Below, piece by piece: positions 584 to 48,556 of a DNA stretch of 64,000 nt (within the stretch, counting starts at the first letter, position 1; the number at the start of each line of letters is the position of its first letter). Origin of the DNA: Clostridiaceae bacterium JG1575 (GTDB lineage: Bacteria; Bacillota; Clostridia; Clostridiales; Clostridiaceae); the NCBI GenBank assembly GCA_002838815.1, contig LQGW01000052.1, positions 62,001 through 126,000 of the forward strand, read 5' to 3'. A program made the translations under genes and the position numbers. Below the pieces are notes generated by a model that saw nothing but the letters and a program-made list of their open reading frames with translations, did not search any database and was not told the DNA's origin.

Positions 584-1363
584 ATGTCTGAATTGTTGAA
601 AATAGAGGAGCTCTTCACCAAGGTGAAGCAACAAGAAATTTTAAAAGGATTGAACCTCACCATCCGGGAAGGAGAAATTCATGTCATTATGGGGCCCAAC
701 GGCGCCGGAAAATCCACCCTGGCCAACGTCATCATGGGCAACCCCATTTATGAAGTCACCAAGGGTTGCCTAAGGTTTATGGGCGAGGACATCACAGCCG
801 AGGCGGCCGATGAGCGGGCCCGGCGAGGGATCTTCATGAGTTTTCAATCGCCCTATGAAATCCAGGGGATTACGGTGGAACACTTCTTGCGCGCAGCCAA
901 GAGCGCGGTTTCTGGAGAAACGCAAAAAGCGTTGCCCTTCCGGAAGCTTTTGAAACGCAAAATGGATGAGCTGGGCATGACCGCCTCCTATGCCACTCGG
1001 TACTTAAACGATGGCTTCTCTGGTGGCGAGAAGAAGAAGAACGAGATTTTACAAATGGCCATCTTAAACCCCAAGCTCGCCATCTTGGATGAGACGGATT
1101 CCGGGCTGGATGTGGATGCCGTCAAGATTGTCTCAGAGGGAGTTTCTCGCTTCTACAACGACCAAAACGCAATTTTGGTCATCACCCACCACAATAAAAT
1201 TCTAGCCAATCTACAGCCGGACTTTGTACACGTCCTCGTGGATGGGCGCATCGTGGCGAGCGGCGGCCCAGAACTGGTGGCGCAAATTGAAGAGCACGGC
1301 TTTGCTCAGTTTAAAGCAAAGAAGGAGGAGACCGCGTGGAAACAAGAAATAAAACTTATGTAG
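584..1363 (+). CDS. sufC: Fe-S cluster assembly ATPase SufC
   Basis: ABC-type ATPase of the SufBCD scaffold, which drives the conformational change needed to build Fe-S clusters in the cytosol. Visible are Walker A (GPNGAGKST), the family's modified signature (FSGGEKKKNE) and Walker B followed by the D-loop (LAILDETDSGLDVDA). At 259 residues it has the usual length. I chose ATG 584 over an in-frame ATG at 557 because AAAGGAG (572-578) is correctly spaced before it and the protein then begins MSELLKI as in homologues. First gene of sufCBDSU, directly behind a strong promoter; its end overlaps sufB by 28 bases. Confidence 0.96.
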   Translation: MSELLKIEELFTKVKQQEILKGLNLTIREGEIHVIMGPNGAGKSTLANVIMGNPIYEVTKGCLRFMGEDITAEAADERARRGIFMSFQSPYEIQGITVEHFLRAAKSAVSGETQKALPFRKLLKRKMDELGMTASYATRYLNDGFSGGEKKKNEILQMAILNPKLAILDETDSGLDVDAVKIVSEGVSRFYNDQNAILVITHHNKILANLQPDFVHVLVDGRIVASGGPELVAQIEEHGFAQFKAKKEETAWKQEIKLM

Positions 1364-2745
1364 AGGACCTGGATCGGGGCATTTACGACGTCAAGAACGA
1401 GTTCAAATACACCTGGAAGGCTCAGGAAGGGTTGACCGAGCAGATCATCCGGGATATTTCCAATGAAAAGAACGAGCCTTCTTGGATGTTGGAGTTTCGA
1501 TTGAAGTCCTTGGAGCATTTCCACCGCATCGAGGTGCCCACTTGGGGGCCGGATCTTTCAGAGTTGCTGGTGGATGAAATCATCCACTACGTCAAGCCGG
1601 AGATTGGACAAAAACACCGCTGGGAGGATGTCCCTTCAGACATTAAAGAAACGTTTGAGCGCCTGGGCATTCCCGAAGCTGAGCGAAAATCCTTAGCCGG
1701 TGTTGGCGCCCAATACGATTTCGAGGTCGTTTATCACTCCATGCGTGAGGAGCTCGTGCGCCAAGGCGTCATCTACACCGACATCGAGACCGCGCTGAAG
1801 GAGCATGAAGACGTGGTCCGTCAGTACTTTATGACCCTTGTGCCTCCCAACGACCATAAGTTCGCGGCCCTGCACGGGGCGGTATGGTCCGGCGGAAGCT
1901 TTGTCTACGTGCCCGAAGGGGTCAAAGTGGATTTTCCGTTGCAATCCTATTTTCGTCTAAACGCTCCGGGGGCCGGGCAGTTTGAACATACGCTGATCAT
2001 TGTGGAGAAGGGCGCATCGCTGCACTTTATCGAAGGGTGCTCAGCCCCCAAATACAACGTCAACAACCTGCACGCCGGGTGCGTGGAGCTCTTTGTCAAG
2101 GAAAACGCCCACCTTCGCTACTCCACCATTGAAAACTGGAGCAAAAACATGTTCAATCTCAACACCAAGCGCTCCCAGGTGGAAAAAGGCGGCACCATCG
2201 AATGGGTTTCGGGGTCCTTTGGTTCCAAAATTTCCATGCTCTACCCCATGTCCATTTTGAAGGGAGAAGGCGCGCACTGTGAATTTACGGGCATCACCTT
2301 TGCCAGCAAAGGACAAATCCTGGATACAGGATCCAAGGTTGTGCACGCGGCGCCCCACACCACCTCCAACGTTATGAGTAAATCCATCTCGAAATCCGGT
2401 GGACAGGCTTTGTATCGAGGGATCTTGAAAATCAATCCCAATGCCTACGGCTGCAAATCCACCGTGACGTGCGAATCCTTAATGCTGGACAATGAATCGC
2501 GATCCGACACCATTCCAGTGATTGACGTTCAAAACGACGATGTGGATCTGGGGCATGAAGCCCGCATTGGGCGCATCTCCGAGGAGGCGATCTACTACCT
2601 CATGACCCGAGGCATTTCCGAGGAGGAGGCCAAGGCCATGATTGTCCGAGGATTTGTGGAGCCCATCTCGAAGGAACTGCCCTTGGAGTATGCCGTGGAG
2701 ATGAACAATCTCATCACCCTGGAGCTCGAAGGCACCATCGGGTAG
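1336..2745 (+). CDS. sufB: Fe-S cluster assembly scaffold SufB
   Basis: Scaffold subunit of SufBCD, 469 residues as usual. The long beta-helix region is recognisable (HGAVWSGGSFVYVPEGV, GCSAPKY, GHEARIGRISEEAIYYLMTRG), as is the C-terminal SKELPLEYAVEMNNLI segment. Starts with GTG at 1336, preceded by AAGGAGGAG; it begins inside the 3' end of sufC (28-base overlap), implying translational coupling that would keep the SufB:SufC ratio fixed. It accepts persulfide sulfur from SufS via SufU. Confidence 0.96.
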   Translation: METRNKTYVEDLDRGIYDVKNEFKYTWKAQEGLTEQIIRDISNEKNEPSWMLEFRLKSLEHFHRIEVPTWGPDLSELLVDEIIHYVKPEIGQKHRWEDVPSDIKETFERLGIPEAERKSLAGVGAQYDFEVVYHSMREELVRQGVIYTDIETALKEHEDVVRQYFMTLVPPNDHKFAALHGAVWSGGSFVYVPEGVKVDFPLQSYFRLNAPGAGQFEHTLIIVEKGASLHFIEGCSAPKYNVNNLHAGCVELFVKENAHLRYSTIENWSKNMFNLNTKRSQVEKGGTIEWVSGSFGSKISMLYPMSILKGEGAHCEFTGITFASKGQILDTGSKVVHAAPHTTSNVMSKSISKSGGQALYRGILKINPNAYGCKSTVTCESLMLDNESRSDTIPVIDVQNDDVDLGHEARIGRISEEAIYYLMTRGISEEEAKAMIVRGFVEPISKELPLEYAVEMNNLITLELEGTIG

Positions 2746-2757
2746 GAAGGAGAAACC

Positions 2758-3840
2758 ATGCAAGTCAAACCAAAAGAAGTGTTTAATGAGCTGCCCCGCA
2801 TCACCTTTCGTTGGGTGCGGGCCAACGACCTAAAGCTTGATGCGAAAAAGGGGCCAGTGAGCCCTTATCAAAAAGACCCCATCGTCCAAGGGCAAAGCTC
2901 CATCCAGGGGGTTCCAAGCCACCGGCTGGAGGAATTCTTAGGAACGTATCAAGGCACCAATGCCACCGAAATGCAAAAGATTTTGGCGGGAAATCCGGTA
3001 TCCCACCACATCGTCAGCGGGGGCGAGGACGCAAGGGTTCACCTGCGCTACGACTTGGATTCGGACAATCCGAGCCTTTTGGAGCTGAACCTCATTGAAG
3101 TGCGCGAGGGGGAAACCCTGCACGTGATCCAGGAATACCGGGGATCTTGCGAGGCGCTCTACGCCTCCACCTTAACGTTAATCTCCGTTGCTTCTGGGGG
3201 AGCGCTGCACCTCACGAAGATCAACCACCTGCCTTATGAACTTCGTCACATCGAGCAGCGCTACGCCAGGGTGTTCGAGGGAGGCGCCGTCCACTACCAA
3301 AGCGTGGAATTGGGAGGCGAGGAAACCATCATCCATTATGAGACGGATCTTTTAGGGCGCGAAGCCAAGGGCGACCTAGCCTGCATCTACGGCGGCCATC
3401 AAGGGCGCATTCTCGATTTATCGCACCAAATGAACCACTATGGCGAATGCAGCTTTTCGGATATGGATTTGCGTGGCGTTTTGAGCGACCGCGCAAAAAA
3501 AACCTTTCGCGGGACCTTGGATTTTAAAAAGGGCGCGGCTCAATCCGAGGGCGGGGAGGTGGAGTCGGTCCTATTGCTCCATCCTCAGGTGAAGTCTTTC
3601 GCCATCCCCTTACTGCTATGCGCAGAGCATGATGTGGTGGGCAACCACGCCGCTAGCGCCGGGCAGATTGATGAAGACAAGCTCTTTTACCTCATGAGTC
3701 GGGGGTTCTCTCAAGCGAAGAGCCGCCGCATGATCGTGGAATCCAGCCTGCGTCCGCTGGTGGATCGCCTGCCCACCGAAACGTTGCGTGAGGAAGTGCT
3801 GGAGCGTCTGGGGGAATTATTGGGCTCAGAAGCCCCATAA
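2758..3840 (+). CDS. sufD: Fe-S cluster assembly protein SufD
   Basis: Paralogue of SufB that pairs with it in SufBC2D; implicated in iron acquisition and scaffold stability. 360 residues, with the C-terminal signature GNHAASAGQIDEDKLFYLMSRG and the following helical RMIVESSLRPLVDRLP stretch typical of SufD. The N-terminal half is divergent, as in the family. ATG 2758 is preceded by AAGGAG. It sits 12 bases after sufB and 10 before sufS. Confidence 0.92.
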   Translation: MQVKPKEVFNELPRITFRWVRANDLKLDAKKGPVSPYQKDPIVQGQSSIQGVPSHRLEEFLGTYQGTNATEMQKILAGNPVSHHIVSGGEDARVHLRYDLDSDNPSLLELNLIEVREGETLHVIQEYRGSCEALYASTLTLISVASGGALHLTKINHLPYELRHIEQRYARVFEGGAVHYQSVELGGEETIIHYETDLLGREAKGDLACIYGGHQGRILDLSHQMNHYGECSFSDMDLRGVLSDRAKKTFRGTLDFKKGAAQSEGGEVESVLLLHPQVKSFAIPLLLCAEHDVVGNHAASAGQIDEDKLFYLMSRGFSQAKSRRMIVESSLRPLVDRLPTETLREEVLERLGELLGSEAP

Positions 3841-3850
3841 AGGAGAAGCC

Positions 3851-5078
3851 ATGCCATTTCAAGAGGAGTTTCCTATTTTTCGAAAAAGGCGGGCCCTGGG
3901 CCAGCCGTTGATTTATTTGGATTCTGCAGCCACCGCGCAAAAGCCCCAAGCGGTCTTGGATGCGGTGACGGAGTATCTGACGAGCTCCTACGCCAACCCG
4001 CATCGAGGCTCTTGCCGCCTTGCGGCACAGGCTACGAGCCAGTACGAAGCGGTACGCGCCCGCGTGGCTCGTTTTTTAGGAGCGCCGAGCGAGCGCAACA
4101 TCATCTTTGTGAAGAACGCCACCGAGGGCTTAAACCTGATCGCTCAAAGTTATGCCATGAAGGCGGTGGGCTCTGGCGATGAGATCGTCTTGAGCATCGC
4201 AGAGCACCACGCCAATCTTTTGCCCTGGCAACGAGTGGCGCAAAAAACCGGCGCGCGCTTGATCTATTTGTACCTGGATGAAACGGGCGCCATTTCAAAG
4301 AGTGAATGGGAAAAAATCAACGAAAAGACCAAACTTGTCGCCCTAACCCACGTCTCCAACGTCACAGGACGCATTACGGATGTGCAGGAGGCGGCCCGGT
4401 CGTGCCCATGAAGTGGGCGCTGTGCTGGTGTGCGATGGCTCCCAGGCGGTGGGCCATCTGCCCGTTCGGGTGGAGGAGCTCGGCGTGGATTTCTACGTTT
4501 TTACCGGCCATAAGATCATGGCCCTCAATGGGGCGGGGGTGGTTTATGGGCGAAGGGATCTTTTGGAGGAAATGGATCCCTTCCTATTGGGCGGCGATAT
4601 GATTGAATATGTCCAAGAGCAATCCGCCACCTTCAATACAGTGCCCTACAAGTTTGAAGCGGGGACGCCACTTTCGGAGGCGGTGATCAGCCTCGGAGCC
4701 GCCTTGGACTATCTGGAGGAGCGGGTGGGCTTTGAGCGCATCCAGCAGGTGGATCGTGAACTGACCGGGTATCTTTTGGCGGGCCTTGCCAACATTCCAG
4801 AGATTACAATCCTTGGAGGGGCCACGGCCCAGGAACGCACCGGCATCATTACCTTTACCTTGGAGGGGGTGCACGCCCACGATGTGGCTCAAATACTGTC
4901 CATGAAAGGAATCTGTGTGCGCTCAGGCCACCACTGCGCCCAGCCCTTGGCAAAGTTTTGTGGGGCTTCCTCCTCCACAAGGGTGTCTCTTTGGTTTTAC
5001 AACACCAAGGAGGACTGCGATGTTTTTTTGACGGAATTGAGTCGGGTGAGGAGGTTGATGGGACTTGGAGTTTCATGA
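3851..5078 (+). pseudogene. sufS: Cysteine desulfurase SufS, split by a one-base frameshift
   Basis: Group II PLP-dependent cysteine desulfurase that feeds sulfur to SufU and SufBCD. The first frame (ATG 3851, AGGAG upstream) carries LDSAATAQKP, NPHRGS, NATEGLNLIAQ and AEHHANLLPW, then runs into TGA at 4409-4411. The next frame resumes exactly where homologues continue (AHEVGAVLVCDGSQAV) and carries the PLP lysine motif (FTGHKIMALNG) and the catalytic cysteine loop (CVRSGHHCAQP). Dropping one base at about 4400 restores a full protein of about 408 residues. No slippery heptamer is present, so it is either a recent mutation or a sequencing error. The rest of the gene shows no decay. Confidence 0.9.
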
Positions 5079-5541
5079 GTTATATTCAGAGGTCATTTTA
5101 GAGCACAACCAAAACAAAGAGAATAAGCGCCCCTTGGCGCAGGCAACGCATCAAGAGCACGGGCACAATCCCAGCTGTGGGGATGATCTGACGGTGTCGG
5201 CGCGGGTGGTGGACGGTCGCATTGAAGATTTGGCTTATGAGGGCGTAGGGTGCGCCATCAGCCAGGCCTCCGCCTCCATGATGGCGGATCTTTTGCGAGG
5301 AAAATCCGTGGAAGAGGCCTTGGCGCTTACGGAACGCTTTTTAGGGATGATCCGACGGGAAGAAATTCCAGAGCAAAAGCTAGAAGAGCTCGGCGATGCG
5401 TATCTTCTAAAGAACATTCAAAACATTCCCGCCCGCGTCAAGTGCGCGGTTCTCGCTTGGCATGCCTTGCACGAGATTTTGGAAAAGGAGGCGGCCCGCC
5501 CCTACCCTAGAGCCATTGAAAAACCCTTTCCAGATGGGTAA
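5065..5541 (+). CDS. sufU: Zinc-dependent sulfurtransferase SufU
   Basis: Takes persulfide sulfur from SufS and passes it to SufBCD; resembles IscU but works as a zinc sulfurtransferase in Firmicutes. The three cysteines and the aspartate that hold zinc are visible (NPSCGDD, GVGCAIS, VKCAV). Length is 158 residues, with the SufU-type insertion between the second and third cysteine. TTG start at 5065, overlapping the end of sufS by 14 bases, with a GAGGAGG upstream. Last gene of the suf operon. Confidence 0.93.
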   Translation: MEFHELYSEVILEHNQNKENKRPLAQATHQEHGHNPSCGDDLTVSARVVDGRIEDLAYEGVGCAISQASASMMADLLRGKSVEEALALTERFLGMIRREEIPEQKLEELGDAYLLKNIQNIPARVKCAVLAWHALHEILEKEAARPYPRAIEKPFPDG

Positions 5542-19113: not shown

Positions 19114-19569
19114 TTGAAACTGTCAACCAAGGGCAAATATGGCGTCAAGGCGATGGTGGATTTGGCCATTCACCGGGGGGAGGTCCCGGTCTCCATTAAA
19201 AGCATCAGCCAACGGCAAAACATTTCAGAGTATTATCTGGAACAGCTCTTTGCCCCCCTTCGCCGGGCTGAGATGATCAAAAGCATCCGAGGAGCACAGG
19301 GGGGATACATCTTAAACCGCGATCCAAAAACCGTTACGGTTCTTGAGATCATGGACATATTGGAAGGACCCATTGAGATTTCAGAGTGCCTCGAGCATGA
19401 GACGTGCGGCAACATCGACTGCTGCGCCACCCGCACCGTCTGGCGAAAACTCAAGGATGCCATTGACGGAGTCATGGAATCCATTACGCTTCAGGACATC
19501 GTGGATGACTACCGAAGAAACAATGAGCTTCAAATCAAAAAAAGCAGCAAAGGGGAGTACGAGCAATGA
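19114..19569 (+). CDS. iscR: Rrf2-family Fe-S-sensing regulator IscR
   Basis: 151-residue winged-helix regulator. Begins with KLSTKGKYGVKAMVDLA as in IscR/CymR, recognition helix region NISEYYLEQLFAPLRRA, wing IRGAQGGYIL. The cluster-ligand cysteines are kept (ECLEHETCGNIDCC), which argues for IscR rather than the cluster-less CymR. TTG start at 19114 with AAGGAGGG upstream; the in-frame sequence before it covers the promoter. Overlaps iscS by ATGA. It probably represses its own operon and perhaps suf. Confidence 0.9.
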   Translation: MKLSTKGKYGVKAMVDLAIHRGEVPVSIKSISQRQNISEYYLEQLFAPLRRAEMIKSIRGAQGGYILNRDPKTVTVLEIMDILEGPIEISECLEHETCGNIDCCATRTVWRKLKDAIDGVMESITLQDIVDDYRRNNELQIKKSSKGEYEQ

Positions 19570-20789
19570 GGGATGAACAACGGATTATTTATATGGACAA
19601 TGCGGCTACGACCCGCGTGAAGAAAGAAGTCCTCGAGGCTATGATGCCTTGCTTTGAAGAATTCTATTTTAATCCCTCGTCCATTTACGGCCCCTCTCAG
19701 CACACCAAGGCTCTTTTGGATGTGGCCCGGGACCAGGTGGCCAAAGCGCTTGGCTGCGATCCTTCCGAGGTCTATTTTACGGCTGGTGGCTCTGAGGCCG
19801 ACAACTATGCCATTAAGGGCGTGGCGTTCCGCAATCGCGCCAAGGGCAATCACATCATCACCAGCGCCATCGAACATCACGCGGTGCTGCATACCTGCCA
19901 ATGGCTGGAAAAGCAAGGGTTTGAAGTGACCTATCTGCCCGTGGATGAAGAAGGTTTTGTCACAGCTCGGCAGGTGAAAGAAGCCATGACGGACCAGACG
20001 ATTCTGGTGTCCATCATGATGGCCAATAACGAAATCGGCACCATTGAGCCCATTGCTGAAATTGGGACGCTCTGCCGGGAACGCTCCGTCTATTTCCACA
20101 CCGACGCCGTTCAGGCGGTGGGCCAGATTCCCATCGACGTCCAGGCCCTGAAGGTGGACCTTTTATCCCTGTCGGGGCATAAGTTGCACGCGCCCAAGGG
20201 CGTGGGCGCCCTTTACGTGCGTAAGGGCGTTCGCTTGGACAACCTCATTCATGGAGGAGCCCAAGAGCGGGGCCGGCGTGCTGGCACGGAAAATGTCGCA
20301 GGGATTGTGGCGCTGGGCAAAGCCATTGAATTGGCGGACGCCCACTTGGCAGAACACGCTCAGCGTATGAGGGGGCTACGGGATCGACTCATTGAAGGCA
20401 TTCTTCAGATTCCCTACAGTCGCCTCAACGGACCGGCAGGGGATCGTCGGTTGCCCAACAACGTCAATGTGATTTTTGAGTTCATTGAAGGCGAAGGCAT
20501 CCTCTTGAATTTGGATTTTGAAGGCATCTGTGGCTCTTCGGGATCCGCCTGCACCTCGGGCTCCCTGGATCCCTCCCACGTGCTCTTGGCCATCGGCCTG
20601 CCCCATGAGTTGGCTCATGGCTCGCTGCGGCTGACCTTGGGTGAATTCAATACGCCTCAGGAGGTGGAGAAGGTGATTGAAGTCCTACCCGGCATCATCG
20701 AAAAATTACGCAGCTACTCTCCGCTTTGGCTGAATCATCTGAAGGAAGAGCAGACAAAAAAAGTTCAATCCAAAGAAGACACTTTATAG
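19566..20789 (+). CDS. iscS: Cysteine desulfurase IscS/NifS (group I)
   Basis: PLP enzyme supplying sulfur for Fe-S clusters and for tRNA thiolation by the downstream mnmA product. 407 residues. YMDNAATT at the start, GGSEADNYAIKG, SAIEHHAVL, MMANNEIGTIEP, HTDAVQAVGQIP, PLP lysine in LSLSGHKLHAPKG, and the catalytic-cysteine loop GSACTSGSLDPSHVL. It is intact, unlike sufS, so it could cover for SufS if that frameshift is real. Confidence 0.95.
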   Translation: MRDEQRIIYMDNAATTRVKKEVLEAMMPCFEEFYFNPSSIYGPSQHTKALLDVARDQVAKALGCDPSEVYFTAGGSEADNYAIKGVAFRNRAKGNHIITSAIEHHAVLHTCQWLEKQGFEVTYLPVDEEGFVTARQVKEAMTDQTILVSIMMANNEIGTIEPIAEIGTLCRERSVYFHTDAVQAVGQIPIDVQALKVDLLSLSGHKLHAPKGVGALYVRKGVRLDNLIHGGAQERGRRAGTENVAGIVALGKAIELADAHLAEHAQRMRGLRDRLIEGILQIPYSRLNGPAGDRRLPNNVNVIFEFIEGEGILLNLDFEGICGSSGSACTSGSLDPSHVLLAIGLPHELAHGSLRLTLGEFNTPQEVEKVIEVLPGIIEKLRSYSPLWLNHLKEEQTKKVQSKEDTL

Positions 20790-20801: not shown

Positions 20802-21257
20802 ATGATTTACAGTCCAAAGGTAATGGATCATTTTCGCAATCCGAGAAATGTAGGAGAAATGGAACACCCCGATGCCATCGGGGAAGTGGGCAACGCCAAA
20901 TGCGGCGATATAATGCGTATTTATTTAAAGGTTAAGGACAACGTCATTGAGGACGTGAAATTTATGACCTACGGGTGTGGCTCCGCCATCGCATCGTCCT
21001 CCATGGCCACCGAACTGATCAAAGGGAAAACGCTGGAGGATGCCTGGGAGCTCACCAATAAGGCCGTGGCGGAGGCACTGGAAGGGTTGCCTCCCATTAA
21101 AATGCACTGCTCGGTGCTCGCTGAAGATGCCATTCACGTGGCCATCAACAACTACCGCAAAGAGCATGGCCTGGAGCCTTGGGATTATCATGAGTCCGAT
21201 CACGATCACGATCACGGCGATCCTCATGAGGATTCTGCGAAGGACGAGGAGATTTAA
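20802..21257 (+). CDS. iscU: Fe-S cluster scaffold IscU with acidic/histidine tail
   Basis: 151 residues. The three cluster cysteines are visible ([34 protein letters not shown]) with the aspartate after the first. It starts [16 protein letters not shown] like NifU/IscU N-domains. The last about 25 residues are an unusual tail of alternating Asp and His ([14 protein letters not shown]), a possible metal-binding extension not needed for the fold. AGGAGG precedes ATG 20802. Confidence 0.93.
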
Positions 21258-47157: not shown

Positions 47158-48137
47158 AACTGACGTTCTTGGGCGCGGGGTCCTTTGGCAGCGCGCTGGC
47201 GTTGGCCATGACCTATGCCGGTCATGAGGTGACGCTTTGGGATCGCTCCATGGATACGGTGCGGGAAATCAATGAAAAGCACAAAAACCATCGGTATCTT
47301 CCAGAAATTTCGTTGCCCCAAAAGCTTTGGGCCACCAAAGACTTGGCGGCCGCTTTGGCCTCGCCAGAGCTTTTGATCTTTGCGGTGCCCTCCTCCGCCG
47401 TGCGGGAGATGACCTCGAAGGTTCGGCCCTACCTTAGGGGACAGGAGATCCTCGTGTGTATCGCTAAGGGAGTGGATCCCAAGACCCTGGCCCCTTTGTC
47501 GGAGGTTTTCTTGGAGGAACTGGGGCGGGAGGCCGTCATCCTCTCGGGTCCTTCTCATGCGGAAGAAGTGGCGCTGGGCCTGCCCACCACCATGGTGGCG
47601 TCCTCTCGAGACGAATTGGCCATGCTGCGGGTTCAAGAAGCCTTTTCCACCGACACGTTGCGCATCTACCGAAACCACGATCTTTTGGGGGTGGAAATCG
47701 GCGGTGCTGTAAAAAATATCATTGCCCTAGCGGCAGGGATTTCTGACGGCGTGGGCTTTGGGGATAACGCCAAAGCCGCGTTGATGACGCGGGGGATGGC
47801 GGAAATCATCCGGGTGGGGGAGAAGATGGGGGCTAAGAGCGACACCTTCTATGGCCTCACCGGCATGGGCGATCTCATCGTCACCTGTACCTCCATGCAC
47901 AGCCGCAATCGCCGCTGCGGGATCCTTCTAGGGCAAGGCAAAAGCATGAAGGAAGCCACGGAGGAAGTGGGGATGGTGGTGGAGGGGATCAAAGCCACCC
48001 AATCCTTTTACGAACTGGCGCATCGTCTAAAGGTGGAGATGCCCATTACCGAAGCGGTGCATCAGATCCTCTTTGAGAACGTGCGCCCCCGGGATGCCGT
48101 CTACCAGCTGATGAATCGGGAGCTGAAGCGGGAATGA
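47154..48137 (+). CDS. gpsA: Glycerol-3-phosphate dehydrogenase [NAD(P)+] GpsA
   Basis: 327 residues. [18 protein letters not shown] dinucleotide-binding motif, [34 protein letters not shown] with the catalytic lysine, and [13 protein letters not shown]. Makes sn-glycerol 3-phosphate for phospholipids. GTG start at 47154, AAAGGAAGGAG upstream. Confidence 0.96.
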
Positions 48138-48556
48138 TTTTTTACTTTGTCTTGGCCGGAGTCTTTGGGGCGTATTACTTCAAGCACCGAAAAGACACGC
48201 CCAAGGAACCGGGGGCTCAGCTGCCCCTGATGGCCGCTCTGTTTTTCATCCTCGCCGGCCTCTTTGTATTCGTGGAAACCTTGGTCGGTCATACGCTTCC
48301 TTGGCTTGAGGGCGTGCTGTTGGTGTTGGCCCTGCTTTTGGTCGGTCTCACCCTTCGCCAGGAGATTCAAAAAGCCGTTCGGCAAAGAGAGACATTTTTC
48401 GACCGCGCCCGGGACGAGGAACGAAAAAAGCTTTTAGCGTTGCCCAGAAACTCCATCTTGGCGTATAAAAAAGAACAGGAGGCGGCGCAAGCCGCCGGCA
48501 AAGGAATCGAGGCCGAAAGGCCCACCCTGGATAAGGAAAAAAGACGTGAATCCTAG
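48134..48556 (+). CDS. Small membrane protein of unknown function, coupled to gpsA
   Basis: 140 residues, not recognised. Three hydrophobic segments (about 2-15, 31-50, 58-75) are followed by a charged helical, possibly coiled-coil C-terminal half rich in Arg, Glu and Lys. Its ATG overlaps the gpsA stop (ATGA), so it is co-translated. A strong terminator follows at 48589. Confidence 0.7.
   Translation: MIFYFVLAGVFGAYYFKHRKDTPKEPGAQLPLMAALFFILAGLFVFVETLVGHTLPWLEGVLLVLALLLVGLTLRQEIQKAVRQRETFFDRARDEERKKLLALPRNSILAYKKEQEAAQAAGKGIEAERPTLDKEKRRES

Follow-up and report, generated by a model that had tools for sequence, protein, structure and literature searches.

A single surplus base splits the sufS frame of the sufCBDSU operon in the assembly of Clostridiaceae bacterium JG1575

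Introduction

SufS, represented by the family model TIGR01979 and by solved chains such as 5xt5 and 5j8q, is the type II cysteine desulfurase of SufU-type suf operons. The locus described here lies in a window of 64,000 nucleotides (the whole stretch of DNA that was analyzed, G000:C52:62001-126000) of the 2.38-Mb draft genome of Clostridiaceae bacterium JG1575 (64 contigs, 97.1% complete and 0.23% contaminated). It resembles the known SufU-type operons in its gene order (sufC-sufB-sufD-sufS-sufU, with sufU downstream) and in the motif stretches of its desulfurase, whose two parts match known SufS end to end. It differs from them in one respect: in the present assembly the frame of sufS is split by one surplus base.

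Frame breaks of this kind have been surveyed in 1106 complete genomes with the GeneTack program. According to the available part of that report, unclustered one-base breaks are common and are mostly attributed to errors or fresh indels, and unclustered frame transitions validated by BLASTp are expected to represent sequencing errors and not genuine indels; the class of programmed frameshifting, by comparison, needs a site that is conserved and five or more genes in the cluster (PMC3711429, Table 1). The sufS case is like the singleton class termed "hypothetical pseudogene / error" in the same source (PMC3711429), since it occurs in a single genome as searched, its site is not conserved, both parts of the gene are matched by Pfam and by homologues, and no slip signal is visible by eye. 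No feature setting it apart from the available description of this class was found.

Organization of the suf operon and the frame break in sufS

The genes sufC, sufB, sufD, sufS and sufU are arranged in one direction on the forward strand (positions 584-5541 of the window), and in a profile search all of them except sufS were found in open frames. The first two genes are intact: sufC (584-1363; start picked by reading the sequence), encoding the ATPase of the Suf scaffold (TIGR01978, 328.5 bits, cut-off 212.8), and sufB (1336-2745), encoding a scaffold subunit (TIGR01980, 715.9 bits, cut-off 346.4). The product of sufD (2758-3840) has TIGR01981 as its best family, yet its score of 185.6 bits is below the cut-off of 222. 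The last gene, sufU (5065-5541; TIGR01994, 169.7 bits, cut-off 92.5), encodes the sulfur acceptor of SufS, and its apparent TTG start lies inside the end of sufS (5065-5078). Translation of sufU may be coupled to that of sufS, and might suffer if sufS truly stopped early.

The sufS gene begins with ATG at 3851 and runs in frame 0 for 186 codons to a TGA at 4409-4411 (upstream part, 3851-4411), and the remainder is found in the +1 frame, which is open from 4347 and ends with a stop codon at 5076-5078 (downstream part, 4413-5078). SufS ranks first among the families for both halves, which follow each other in order and contiguously on TIGR01979 (profile positions 4-182 with 223.3 bits, and 189-402 with 274.9 bits) and on Pfam Aminotran_5 (1-164 and 169-371); neither frame alone attains the curated TIGR01979 cut-off of 475.1 bits. 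The upstream part retains the EHHAN stretch and the downstream part retains GHK, RSGHHCAQP and YNT, as in the aligned solved SufS chains. We take GHK and RSGHHCAQP to contain the PLP lysine and the catalytic cysteine, respectively. The predicted role of the protein, as judged from its sequence, is that of a desulfurase with SufU as acceptor.

A frame model based on codon usage, for which 147 long ORFs of contig C52 served as the training set, placed the switch at positions 66402/66403 of the contig (4402/4403 of the window). The sequence and the comparison with homologues confine the surplus to one base within about 4391-4411, where the letters alone give no unique placement. The initial annotation had proposed that a single inserted base splits sufS into parts that, when joined, carry the desulfurase motifs, and both proposals are borne out by the end-to-end halves and by the motif stretches listed above. 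Its assignment of the insertion to an extra T at 4400 is correct as regards one surplus base near that position, with 4400 being one position among several that the letters allow. The break is truly present in the letters, and it is of an ordinary kind. A profile search of the 97% complete draft found no second intact sufS, the other matches being below the cut-off and belonging to paralogues.

Comparison of the break site with other SufS-like loci

A comparison with related genomes, which had been suggested along with the initial annotation, comprised 99 other SufS-like loci. These were the best 80 of 288 confirmed relatives from a scan of GTDB species genomes (named contigs), to which the SufS model was not applied and among which the genome's own and very near records may be omitted, and 19 loci over the SufS cut-off from 58 genomes searched (that of the window and 57 relatives). 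The frame changes at the homologous site in none of the 99 loci (best 80 of 288 plus 19), and the site is flanked by matches on both sides in all of them, also in L044 and L084, in which the contig starts within the gene. Ninety-six loci are open throughout, with no stop. Two others (L065 and L085) have a stop one residue ahead of the end of the span, and the last one (L042) has a separate frame change further upstream, and its frame is unbroken at the homologous site. In G002, a single-contig genome of the same genus, sufS is in one frame (C1:914006-915202, 549.9 bits). As far as searched, the break is private to the present assembly.

The upstream frame change of L042, located in the sufS of a Selenomonas MAG (L042:5448-6657), lies between the residues aligned with 135 and 144 of the query, and is apparently an independent lesion or error of assembly.

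Co-occurrence of SufB and SufS

The presence of SufB and SufS was compared in two samples of genomes. In the first, composed of the 58 genomes mentioned above, SufB over the cut-off was found in 19 genomes and SufU over the cut-off in exactly the same 19; SufS was over the cut-off and in one open frame in all 18 other SufB genomes, the genome of the window being the exception. The second sample included 293 genomes of the class (that of the window and 292 others, with a completeness of 90% or more), 47 of which had SufB over the cut-off; SufS was present in 46 of these and was missing only from the genome of the window. With two genomes common to both samples, 62 of 62 distinct other SufB genomes have a one-frame SufS over the cut-off. 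This strict companionship is a useful by-product of the analysis, and because of it a split sufS serves well as a warning about sequence quality and gives little ground for proposing a rerouted sulfur pathway.

SufS over the cut-off was also observed in eight genomes without SufB over the cut-off, i.e., G017 of the first sample and G146, G164, G167, G235, G242, G250 and G318 of the second. Six of these eight open frames are longer (446-552 aa), and the eight genes may encode desulfurases acting in other settings.

Constraint on the two halves of sufS

The decay of sufS was assessed in a relative-rate comparison with G002, with five further relatives and with 37 named loci. Only rows that covered more than 80% of a protein were kept; these numbered 28 for SufD and 42-44 for the other proteins. 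The identity to G002 is 87% for SufB, 79% for SufC, 71% for SufU, 69% for the C part of SufS, 60% for the N part of SufS and 58% for SufD, so both SufS values lie between the extremes of the other suf proteins. In columns on which the outgroups agree, private changes in the genome of the window and in G002 numbered 9:4 for the N part of SufS and 14:9 for the C part (chi-square 1.92 and 1.09, respectively), and 13:7 for SufB, 9:6 for SufC, 9:8 for SufD and 5:8 for SufU. These counts contain no significant excess of change in the genome of the window for any suf protein, an outcome that a young lesion would share, and the lean seen for SufS has the same direction as that of SufB and SufC.

Near-invariant columns are departed from at 7 of 45 positions in the N part (4 in G002); the corresponding count for the C part is 8 of 72 (8 in G002). 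A slight relaxation in the N part is possible in view of the former counts, and constraint on the downstream half apparently persisted until recently. Since significant decay was detected in neither half, the candidates are a consensus error and a very young mutation, and the pattern of constraint fits either of these better than an old loss.

Other frame changes in contig C52

Along the 345 kb of contig C52, the frame model indicated 84 changes of frame on the same strand, 20 of them inside the window. In a control, it detected 60 of 60 random one-base changes introduced mid-segment (700-1600 bases), short genes and gene ends being outside this control. Altogether, 69 of the 84 frame changes were examined, mostly via the downstream protein alone and, for the last 43 pairs, with at most the first 300 residues of that protein scanned; outside these 69 were ten with a strong start signal, three straddling two sequence stretches and two others. 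A filter for suspicious junctions flagged a rhodanese-like pair and not sufS, and wider criteria were used thereafter.

Two split genes were recognized among the 69 frame changes examined: sufS and the rhodanese-like gene. All 20 changes of the window were included, and sufS was the only split gene found there; at 48077-48553 of the window the sole family match was below its cut-off. Eight downstream parts had no family match (L139:4402-4743, L137:18077-18319, L142:9532-9708, L142:9687-10076, L145:2540-3439, L148:2451-3350, L140:15044-15943 and L145:17788-18687). At L139:3852-4743, two overlapping frames are located downstream of a T2SSF gene, the first of them pilin-like by eye; they have no Pfam or NCBIfam match, and may be neighboring genes or one split gene.

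The rhodanese-like gene (C52:272191-272837; L146:6191-6837) is split at, or adjoining, a run of seven A, which is located in C52:272690-272720. Its two pieces match positions 2-47 (33.8 bits) and 60-99 (22.2 bits) of Rhodanese, and its N terminus is lipoprotein-like by eye. This split represents either an error or a slippage-prone site. On some platforms indel errors are most frequent at long homopolymers. The occurrence of two breaks in 345 kb, with a homopolymer at one of them, is moderate evidence for sequence errors, and the second broken gene moderately favors an error in sufS as well. They are no proof of it, because the break site of sufS is not a long homopolymer.

Origin of the surplus base

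We infer, with a probability of roughly 0.55, that the deposited consensus is in error at the surplus base and that no very recent mutation is involved. The locus would then be an ordinary SufU-type sufCBDSU operon with one surplus base in sufS in the present assembly only, and the SufS made by the organism would be of normal full length and would pass sulfur to SufU and SufBCD. Counting for an error are the absence of the break from all 99 other loci, the retention of SufS in the 62 other SufB genomes, the lack of significant decay and the second broken gene in C52. Counting against it are the nature of the site, which is not a long homopolymer, the fact that frame breaks are not rife in the contig (two split genes among the 69 examined of 84 changes in 345 kb, with eight of the examined changes lacking a family match and so possibly split genes as well), and the departures in the N part (7 versus 4 of 45 near-invariant columns). 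The finding as it stands matters little.

The alternative that survives best is a genuine, very recent frameshift in the sequenced strain, which we consider possible, if somewhat doubtful. Under this explanation, sufS would be a fresh pseudogene and the cell would depend on the isc-like pair encoded further along the window (desulfurase gene at 19566, scaffold gene at 20802), with the Suf scaffold idle or weakly fed. The break is unambiguous in the letters, and the genome has the intact second desulfurase with its scaffold, plus two more desulfurases. Moreover, related bacteria live without a suf operon: SufB over the cut-off is absent from 39 of the 57 relatives sampled, and the same-genus G001 has no SufB or SufU match and SufS matches only below the cut-off, although in this 87% complete draft the absence is uncertain. 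A recent mutation is opposed by the 62 other SufB genomes, none of which lacks an in-frame SufS, and by the lack of significantly relaxed constraint in either part, from which it follows that the lesion would have to be very young, e.g., arisen in culture.

Recoding and restart

Production of a full-length SufS by recoding, through a +1 slip of the ribosome or during transcription, or of a two-piece enzyme by restart at ATG 4380 or GTG 4413, is very unlikely. The C part does retain its frame and motif stretches, the spacing between the TGA and the GTG is short, and reading of the ORFs revealed an internal ATG in the +1 frame (4380-4382), preceded by AGGA, which could potentially start a C-terminal product of 232 codons. 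However, this ATG is missing from the sufS of G002, and its occurrence with the upstream AGGA is probably due to chance. Inspection of the overlap of the two frames (4347-4411) by eye revealed no recognized +1 slip site, and no codon in this shared open stretch allows tRNA re-pairing after a +1 slip; a long homopolymer that could support transcriptional slippage is also absent. A split enzyme formed by restart was retained as a remote rival only.

Programmed frameshifting of sufS is unlikely and was rejected, because the site is not conserved, being common to none of the 99 other loci. The initial annotation had also spoken against programming, on the grounds that no slippery heptamer is present. 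Its conclusion stands and its reason is irrelevant: slippery heptamers serve -1 slips, and a surplus base needs a +1 shift. Phase variation was rejected too, as no repeat is visible by eye at the site.

Other desulfurases and the supply of sulfur to SufBCD

Besides sufS, the genome contains three intact desulfurase genes, located in the isc cluster of the window and in contigs C51 and C34. The first (19566-20789, forward strand) had been annotated as an intact iscS; its frame is indeed open, but its product passes the NifS model TIGR03402 (594.3 bits, cut-off 530.75) and not the IscS model TIGR02006 (442.4 bits, cut-off 643.2). Beside it, on the same strand, lies an intact gene (20802-21257) for a NifU/IscU-type scaffold (TIGR03419 NifU_clost, 219.9 bits, cut-off 187.9). 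The C51 gene is of the NifS type, with NifS ranking first for the scanned first part, and its frame is open to the stop codon. The C34 gene is of the TIGR01977 type (369.8 bits, slightly below the cut-off of 377).

The initial annotation had concluded that, if the break in sufS is real, IscS must supply the Suf pathway with sulfur via SufU. Such a cross-over would be called for only if the base is real, and even then it is not required, because intact desulfurase genes exist in C51 and C34 in addition to the one at 19566. A real and fixed base, by which the species would keep SufBCD and SufU, lose its dedicated SufS and draw sulfur from one of the three other desulfurases, is highly improbable. 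If true, it would be the first such state among the 63 SufB genomes sampled, and a strain in which the base was upheld would be a natural test of feeding SufBCD without SufS.

A permanent loss of SufS with IscS feeding SufBCD through SufU as the working pathway is scarcely credible. In its favor, SufU and SufBCD are in open frames with the NifS-type desulfurase of the isc cluster about 15 kb away, and IscS-type enzymes serve several sulfur carriers according to the available part of a review (PMC8300815). The nitrogenase Fe-S clusters of Paenibacillus polymyxa need both SufCDB and a NifS-like protein, as stated in the accessible text of another article (PMC8038749), so some help across systems, i.e., a desulfurase of another type assisting SufBCD, is conceivable by analogy. 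Nevertheless, the state occurs in none of the 62 other SufB genomes, and the NifU-type scaffold encoded beside the 19566 gene is a direct partner for its product. The published reports, in the parts available, are mostly contrary as well: SufSU of Bacillus subtilis is not interchangeable with IscSU (PMC8038749), and IscS of Mycobacterium tuberculosis has no physical interaction with SufU (PMC8300815). The cross-over is neither required nor favored.

The TIGR01977-type desulfurase gene of C34 is placed between selB and selA, with yedF upstream, and the four genes of this selenium locus (G000:C34:124381-129696; L103:4382-9697), in the order yedF, selB, desulfurase gene and selA, are all open frames.
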